Positions 2,016 to 41,072 of a DNA stretch of 42,864 nt are shown here, piece after piece (position 1 is the first letter of the stretch; the number at the start of each line of letters is the position of its first letter). The position numbers were made by a program, and so were the translations under genes. The DNA is taken from contig CAIXJC010000083.1 in NCBI GenBank assembly GCA_903919715.1, forward strand, positions 1-42,864. The letters run 5' to 3'. This DNA is from an uncultured bacterium (lineage in GTDB: Bacteria; Planctomycetota; Phycisphaerae; Phycisphaerales; SM1A02). Under the pieces are notes generated by a model that saw only the letters and a list, made by a program, of their open reading frames with translations, had not been told where the DNA came from and did not search any database.

Positions 2016-2062
2016 GGTCGCCGCGCAAGCGGGCGAGCGAGTGGGCGCGAGTGAGTGGCGAT

Positions 2063-2187
2063 GCCGTTGAAAAATTCGCTCGGGGCTCAGACAGTCCTCG
2101 GCGGCCGACACGATCTGATTTACGAAAATATGTTTGCAAGTGCAGTCGACCGCCTGCGGAACTCGCCCGAGCAAACTTTTCCACGGC
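2063..2187. repeat. 125-bp imperfect palindromic repeat, copy 1
   Basis: This spacer element between the convergent fabI and MnmE-like genes is closely similar (over 80% by eye) to 40715-40839. Its two halves are imperfect inverted repeats: GCCGT (2063-2067) with ACGGC (2183-2187), GCTCGGG (2078-2084) with CCCGAGC (2166-2172), and an inner arm GGCGGCCGAC (2100-2109) with GTCGACCGCC (2145-2154), leaving an AT-rich loop that is also conserved between copies. Short open frames cross it on both strands but have no start signals. A structured RNA, bidirectional terminator or mobile palindromic repeat are all possible. Confidence 0.8.
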
Positions 2188-2240
2188 GGAGACGCGGATC
2201 ACGCAACAGAACAGAACGGAACTGCAAAGCAAACGCCGAT

Positions 2241-40665: not shown

Positions 40666-40714
40666 GCGCTGCTTAAATAGCCGCGGACACAGCCGCGGAA
40701 ACTGATAAGTGAGC

Positions 40715-40839
40715 AGCCGTGAAAAGTCCTCTCGGGGCTCAAACAGTCCTCGGCGACCGACACGATCCGATTTGCGAAATTTTATTTCAAGTTCAGTCGG
40801 CCGCCTGCGGAACTCGCCCGAGAGAACTTTCCAACGGCT
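40715..40839. repeat. 125-bp imperfect palindromic repeat, copy 2
   Basis: This is the second copy of the element at 2063-2187, in the same orientation and of the same length. AGCCGT (40715-40720) pairs with ACGGCT (40834-40839), TCTCGGG (40730-40736) with CCCGAGA (40817-40823), and GGCGACCGAC (40752-40761) with GTCGGCCGCC (40796-40805). The outer CTCGGG stem keeps pairing although one G-C of copy 1 is T-A here, which supports folding as RNA or as a DNA cruciform. The loops are also conserved, so sequence matters beyond the stem. Confidence 0.8.
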
Positions 40840-40924
40840 GGAGACGCAAGCAGATGCGCGACGGAATCTGAAAACGTTCGAGCGAGAATTTGATTCGCCA
40901 ACGTGGGCAGTGGAATGATTTGAA

Positions 40925-40987
40925 CCCCGGCGAGTTTGCAAGCCGAGCAAGTCTGCGCAGCTCGGCGCAGCATGTTTGAGCCCGGGG
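40925..40987. other. Nested inverted repeat
   Basis: GCCGAGC (40942-40948) pairs with GCTCGGC (40960-40966) around an 11-base loop, and CCCCGG (40925-40930) can close it with CCGGGG (40982-40987). It lies beyond repeat copy 2, with no T tract. It could help stop transcription from either side, but no similar segment flanks copy 1. Confidence 0.5.
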
Positions 40988-41072
40988 GCAAATCAGTCCG
41001 CTGCCAAAATCTGCACGAACCATATTTGAGTCCATGCATTGCGTAGTTGTTTGAACTGCCGCGCTTGTGCTG

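Follow-up and report, generated by a model that had tools for sequence, protein, structure and literature searches.

Integron attC sites fold into hairpins that keep conserved unpaired bases while their stems vary, and they lie just past stop codons. Among interspersed repeats, REPs of the GTAG/CGTC families are 20 to 40 bp long, carry a GTAG or CGTC tag, and occur close to gene 3′ ends, a placement similar to that of the element described here, according to the part of PMC3733652 drawn on here. The same part names ERIC, NEMIS, and RUP among bacterial MITEs (PMC3733652). Palindromes can also be shaped where they stand. Sections of two further papers report that template switching causes arm homogenization and spacer inversion in yeast (PMC8604942) and that it creates and repairs hairpin stems in one event (PMC8794818).

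We analyzed a stretch of 42,864 nucleotides (the window) from an uncultured bacterium of the Phycisphaerales (Planctomycetota). The original prediction held that a long imperfect palindrome occurs twice in this stretch, about 38 kb apart and with more than 80% identity. The pair was confirmed, with copies of about 125 bp that are approximately 85% identical and whose refined coordinates are given below. A repeat search of the window placed them 38.65 kb apart and matched them in segments of 68 nt (85% identity) and 62 nt (84%). Copy A1 lies between a fabI-like gene on the plus strand and a convergent GTPase gene, and copy A2 between an aldose epimerase gene on the plus strand and a convergent DUF1501 gene. 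The features are as follows.

2063 to 2187, plus strand: copy A1 of the palindromic element, downstream of the fabI-like gene, from repeat search and folding; element present here in 5 of 17 genus genomes
2085 to 2100, plus strand: left core half L of A1, GCTCAGACAGTCCTCG
2154 to 2166, plus strand: right core half R of A1, CTGCGGAACTCGC
40714 to 40840, plus strand: copy A2 of the palindromic element, downstream of the aldose epimerase gene; element present here in 5 of 7 genomes
40737 to 40752, plus strand: left core half L of A2
40805 to 40817, plus strand: right core half R of A2
about 40906 to 41005, minus strand: palindrome B, a variant core in opposite orientation (GCTCAAACATGC ... GGCTTGCAAACTCGC), adjoining A2 towards the convergent DUF1501 gene

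Both copies fold into long imperfect hairpins, and the minus-strand folds are more stable than the plus-strand folds. Compared with shuffled sequences, A2 reached z = −3.04 on the plus strand. A1 reached z = −4.07 on the minus strand and z = −1.33 on the plus strand, where 22 of 200 shuffles matched it, a value within chance. A tandem G·A beside the stem suggests that the minus strand might form a K-turn or a ribozyme. Palindrome B, a related palindrome absent from the original prediction, follows A2. Its pattern (GCTCAAACATGC...GCTTGCAAACTCGC) was present in 28 of 194 loci; in the loci that we read, B was oriented opposite to A and its outer stems varied from place to place.

Each element consists, in order, of an arm S1 (median, 24 bp), a left block L of 16 nt, an inner part S2, a right block R of 13 to 14 nt, and the second arm S1′. 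The inner part is a long stem or merely a 3-nt loop. Most elements measure about 80 to 140 bp; shorter and longer forms exist, all of them well above 40 bp. The two blocks form a conserved internal-loop core, with L = GCTCARACAGTCCTCG and R = CTGCGGAACT(C/GC)GC.

Further copies were sought in the genome and its relatives, and many were found, clearly contrary to the refuting condition of the original prediction that neither would hold any. With one copy as the query, the genome of origin returned 28 rows at an E value of 0.01 or better, which merged and aligned into 24 places: the apical part is long in 14 and short in 6, and 4 places are truncated. Among 61 genomes searched at an E value of 0.001 or better, the family was present in 9 of 19 genomes of the genus (our own counted) and in none of 42 others. 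The copy-rich genus genomes G011 and G012 gave 57 and 54 matches, respectively, and several loci carried copies in tandem in the same orientation. Between Planctomycete copies, the paired regions vary, and the two blocks are almost fixed. The aligned copies, judged by eye, share the ends CAGCCG...CGGCTG, with GTAGCCG in a few. Many of the A copies in Planctomycetes (L050 and L316 among them) are preceded by a variable number of short tandem repeats, each about 12 bp long (ACAGCCRCGGAA).

To follow the core across phyla, we searched genome contigs with a gapped pattern of both blocks and obtained at least 113 stretches. Of the 113 stretches listed, 97 scored at least 60 bits against the Planctomycete family and 16 had no family A match. 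Eleven of these 16 were named, as Coriobacteriia (Olsenella, Atopobiaceae, Coriobacteriaceae, and Coriobacteriia) or Chloroflexi metagenome-assembled genomes (MAGs); their blocks were the same and their stems unrelated. The full core pattern was present in eight of nine genomes searched from the Coriobacteriia and Chloroflexi carriers. The L half, searched by itself, was found in 105 of 296 Coriobacteriia genomes, with up to 88 copies per genome, and the reversed control pattern had no match in the rows returned. Only one of 392 genomes of our own phylum contained it (the genome of origin), and the control pattern also gave one match. Three of 400 Chloroflexota genomes had an L hit, again with one match for the control; for two of the three, no right half was found in the 150 nt after the match, and these half-motif hits were set aside.

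Conservation of R was measured on loci that had been picked without R (L225 to L294, L320 to L349, and L353 to L382). With up to two mismatches allowed, R lay within 90 nt of 72 of 80 L halves, against 7 of 3,708 control windows. Positions 1 to 10 were identical in 69 to 72 of these 72 R halves, and positions 11 to 13 took two forms, CGC (39) and GCG (33). From Coriobacteriia to Chloroflexi MAGs and a single Planctomycetota genus, the core is nearly invariant and the stems differ. A viral origin was also considered and rejected: core A in two spacings and core B in one had no matches in viral contigs, and blastn with the 33-nt core returned one plasmid record and five phage records, all partial and with E values of 3 or more.

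The arms behave differently from the core. In 91 Coriobacteriia hairpins, where S1 again extends over a median of 24 bp, each arm formed a median of 21 Watson-Crick pairs (lowest, 2) with its own partner, compared to 1.5 when arms were swapped between hairpins. Swapped-arm pairing reached 18 at the 95th percentile and 31 at the highest, because some copies share a family. In genomes G716, G718, and G067, the copies that we read had arms that differed from copy to copy. Among those read from G597, G683, and the Planctomycete genus, many have common arms by eye. Two further arrangements were seen. Hairpins L196, L203, and L209 (G064) contain cores nested within one another, at least two per hairpin, as though one element had moved into the loop of another. 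In L261 and L263 of G597, the inner regions are expanded by a repeated unit of about 75 bp containing AACCTTTTTGGTT; L263 is partly N.

Arms also diverge between orthologous sites. Between species, the distal 14 nt of the arm were 50 to 71% identical and the whole 24-nt arm was 54 to 79% identical, except for the near-identical pair L355/L207 (100%). For reference, the two arms within one element are 67 to 96% identical and random 24-mers 56%. The distal parts of the arms at orthologous sites are therefore about as unlike as random sequence, and the whole-arm values indicate that part of the arm is kept. Two pairs, L353 and L355 at argF and L234 and L235 at mqnA, show alignable compensating changes that resemble stepwise, RNA-type change.

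Copies often lie just 3′ of stop codons. We scored orientation with a simple gene caller for 57 cores in L195 to L214 and L225 to L254, a set that includes two Chloroflexota loci and in which nested cores were counted singly. The nearest upstream gene was co-directional for 44 cores and opposite for 11, and 2 had none; 10 of the 57 were inside called open reading frames (ORFs). Thirty of the 44 co-directional cores begin 24 to 50 nt past the stop codon. In five other chosen genomes (L255 to L294), the counts were 27 co-directional, 16 opposite, and 4 with no upstream gene, so that the orientation bias was weak or absent, and in G597 alone (6, 7, and 2, respectively) orientation was not fixed. 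For Planctomycete family A, removing 68 copies near an edge and 15 in called ORFs from 177 left 94 scored copies, of which 74 were co-directional and 20 opposite, with 62 between convergent genes. The 24 copies in the genome of origin comprised 16 co-directional, 2 opposite, 3 inside ORFs, and 3 at an edge. All of these position counts include tandem and orthologous copies and are not independent. The recognizable upstream proteins are mostly ones that we take to be housekeeping.

Element sites are gained and lost. The five occupied fabI sites, among the 17 genus genomes with a fabI match, belong to a close group whose FabI-like proteins are 93 to 96% identical to our own; the core was not seen in the 450 nt at the fabI site of the remaining 12. 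The epimerase count (5 of 7) excludes an eighth, partial match. At both genes, the element-free sites are too diverged for the boundaries of the element, and with them any target-site duplication, to be defined. In Coriobacteriia, an element was present at purA in 7 of 30 loci, three of the 30 (one with a core) ending less than 100 nt from the stop codon, and at argF in 2 of 30.

Other hairpins occur at such sites. In L318 (G017), an unrelated long hairpin occupies the epimerase 3′ site where other species have A. A second conserved-loop hairpin stands 3′ of an argF-like gene in Coriobacteriia. Its loop, GGATGCTCGTCTCC, was exact in 12 of 30 loci (L359 to L363, L365, L367 to L370, L378, and L381), L364 is a variant with a compensating stem, and an Rfam search of five of the loci found no match.

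If the arms were kept as RNA, they should carry a strand signature. RNA stems tolerate G·U and do not tolerate A·C, and therefore G·T mismatches should exceed A·C mismatches on the transcribed strand. In the arms of the 91 Coriobacteriia hairpins, the two were equally frequent (64 G·T versus 67 A·C, P = 0.86). The same held in a looser count (126 versus 129), and hairpins whose neighbors were both co-directional had 15 G·T and 20 A·C. The purA loci bear on the same question. Cores in L320 and L323 face one way and those in L321 and L322 the other; among these loci, purA is 96 to 97% identical to that of L320 and S2 is 75 to 85% alike to it. Inversion in place is the simplest reading, and independent replacement is possible. 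Together, the equal mismatch counts and the opposite purA orientations favor upkeep of the Coriobacteriia arms at the DNA level over upkeep as RNA.

The Planctomycete copies gave a different result. On the plus strand, A·C far exceeded G·T both in S1 (308 versus 78) and in S2 (167 versus 10), and S1 in the genome of origin had 30 A·C and 9 G·T (P = 0.001). All pattern loci bar 11 were taken as Planctomycete in this set, though 16 of 113 lacked a family A match, and we did not treat the counts as independent, because copies share ancestry and a few fixed positions are inherited. An excess of this kind would fit folding of the minus strand, on which A·C of the plus strand reads as G·U, and strand neutrality is unsupported there.

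Our reading, to which we assign a probability of roughly 0.5, is that the element is a palindromic repeat of the chromosome that evolves as DNA; its two-part core is conserved, and its stems are free. We infer that the fixed core is the part that some factor recognizes and spreads. The folded core would be bound and spread by a structure-recognizing enzyme or host factor, both from one bacterium to a distant one and to new sites in the same genome, and copies near gene ends would survive best. A replication polymerase may then switch template at the core hairpin and copy one flank as the inverted form of the other, which would keep the arms matched and sometimes flip the core. Arm homogenization and spacer inversion are outcomes of template switching, and on this basis the arms would be made and kept at the DNA level. 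Some results count against this reading: the co-directional bias (44 versus 11) exceeds what a strand-neutral element would need, though it is weaker in L255 to L294, part of the arm is kept between orthologues, the argF and mqnA pairs look stepwise and compensatory, and the Planctomycete copies show their A·C excess. A mobilizing enzyme was not found in a search for Y1_Tnp (RAYT type), which was negative in all 19 genus genomes and positive in 5 of 14 control genomes, or among the families listed for neighboring proteins, where 25 of 129 families, from 99 proteins, included no transposase. The fullest version of the idea is tentative and possible at best. It would make the hairpin a self-renewing DNA element. 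Its fixed two-part core, recognized in folded form by a putative enzyme, would pass between bacteria that are only distantly related, establish itself close to gene ends, and form locus-specific arms of rather constant length (about 24 bp) by reverse-complement copying of the neighboring host DNA.

Under a rival reading, the hairpin acts as RNA in a 3′ untranslated region. Co-transcribed with the upstream gene, its internal loop would be bound by a protein that stabilizes, processes, or terminates the mRNA, and the stems would vary since pairing alone matters. The position after stop codons and the orientation bias in many genomes agree with such a role, as do the housekeeping character of the upstream genes and an internal loop that is almost invariant beside compensating stems. 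We nevertheless consider it rather doubtful, given that G·T equals A·C in the Coriobacteriia arms, that the core is inverted at the same purA locus between close relatives, that G597 has no orientation bias, and that the element is absent from many orthologous sites. In addition, Rfam 15 gave no match at the gathering score in the window or in 10 out-of-genus loci, with only sub-threshold hits, among them a microRNA-family match on A2 that was rejected (24.4 bits against a cut-off of 100). For the arms, the suggestion in the original prediction of a structured RNA is thus disfavored by the equal mismatches and the opposite purA orientations in Coriobacteriia. Separately, L195 and L251 resembled the 3′ halves of tRNAs, but ARAGORN predicted no tRNA in any of 19 loci submitted.

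The element could also be a non-autonomous miniature transposon like MITEs, ERICs, or REPs, which a transposase of a known class moves in trans, with arms that are drifted terminal inverted repeats. Such an origin would account for the dispersed multicopy families whose members have arms in common (in the Planctomycete genus and, within Coriobacteriia, in G597 and G683), for tandem and inverted pairs, and for clade-specific sites. A transposase recognizes fixed ends, whereas the arms in G716, G718, and G067 differ from copy to copy, and the genus genomes lack Y1_Tnp; we judge this origin unlikely. Least probable by far is that the hairpins are non-canonical or bidirectional transcription terminators that evolved convergently. 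Most scored Planctomycete copies (62 of 94) do lie between convergent genes, and a strict scan found inner stems resembling intrinsic terminators in 4 of 93 Coriobacteriia hairpins and in none on the other strand. So small a share led us to reject inner stems as native terminators, and the proposal of a bidirectional terminator offers no general explanation. A fixed loop in two parts, about 29 nt in all and common to several phyla, is more than termination would require, and by eye, U-runs were not seen after the arms in most copies.

The remaining suggestion, a REP-like mobile palindrome, comes closest. Dispersal in many copies, often at gene 3′ ends and with no transposase of their own seen, stood up; the RAYT, the length of 20 to 40 bp, and the GTAG or CGTC tag did not. 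We found no description of the element in the literature searched, a search that excluded supplements and left subscription papers mostly outside its scope, and the repeat family is apparently undescribed. If our reading is right, it is a bacterial interspersed repeat defined by a conserved internal loop and not by its ends, present across phyla and with arms apparently rewritten locally. Two questions would then become testable: how palindromic repeats without a transposase are mobilized, and to what extent hairpins in bacterial genomes are built and repaired through template switching. The element also carries a warning: compensating stem changes, the usual proof of a functional RNA, can occur without a strand-specific G·U signature.

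The Planctomycete copies presumably resemble bacterial MITEs in size and dispersal. Like ERIC, NEMIS, RUP, and other MITEs, the elements are interspersed noncoding palindromes near genes; unlike these families, with their fixed terminal repeats, they have outer arms that are locus specific in some genomes and share the center alone across phyla. With integron attC sites they have in common a hairpin, conserved unpaired bases, variable stems, and a position after stop codons; attC differs in having its conserved boxes at the hairpin base, while here an arm of about 24 bp lies outside the core. REP and BIME sequences with RAYT, as far as the part of PMC3733652 used here describes them, are likewise palindromic and intergenic and sit close to gene 3′ ends; the spacers that hold them are convergent or unidirectional, and inverted pairs are frequent. 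By the features tested, the element is not a REP, because the genus has no RAYT (Y1) transposase, the element is far longer (mostly 80 to 140 bp), and the consensus of aligned Planctomycete copies, inspected by eye, has no GTAG or CGTC tag; a two-part internal-loop core and free stems also set it apart. With template-switched quasipalindromes it shares arm homogenization, multibase changes, and spacer inversion, to judge from the sections of PMC8604942 and PMC8794818 cited above. Those cases are mutations at arbitrary sequences, in yeast genes and RNA genes, whereas the present element has a fixed core that travels with it and is dispersed. The element may accordingly be placed as a variant among interspersed palindromic repeats, with the possibility that it is a new kind of element.
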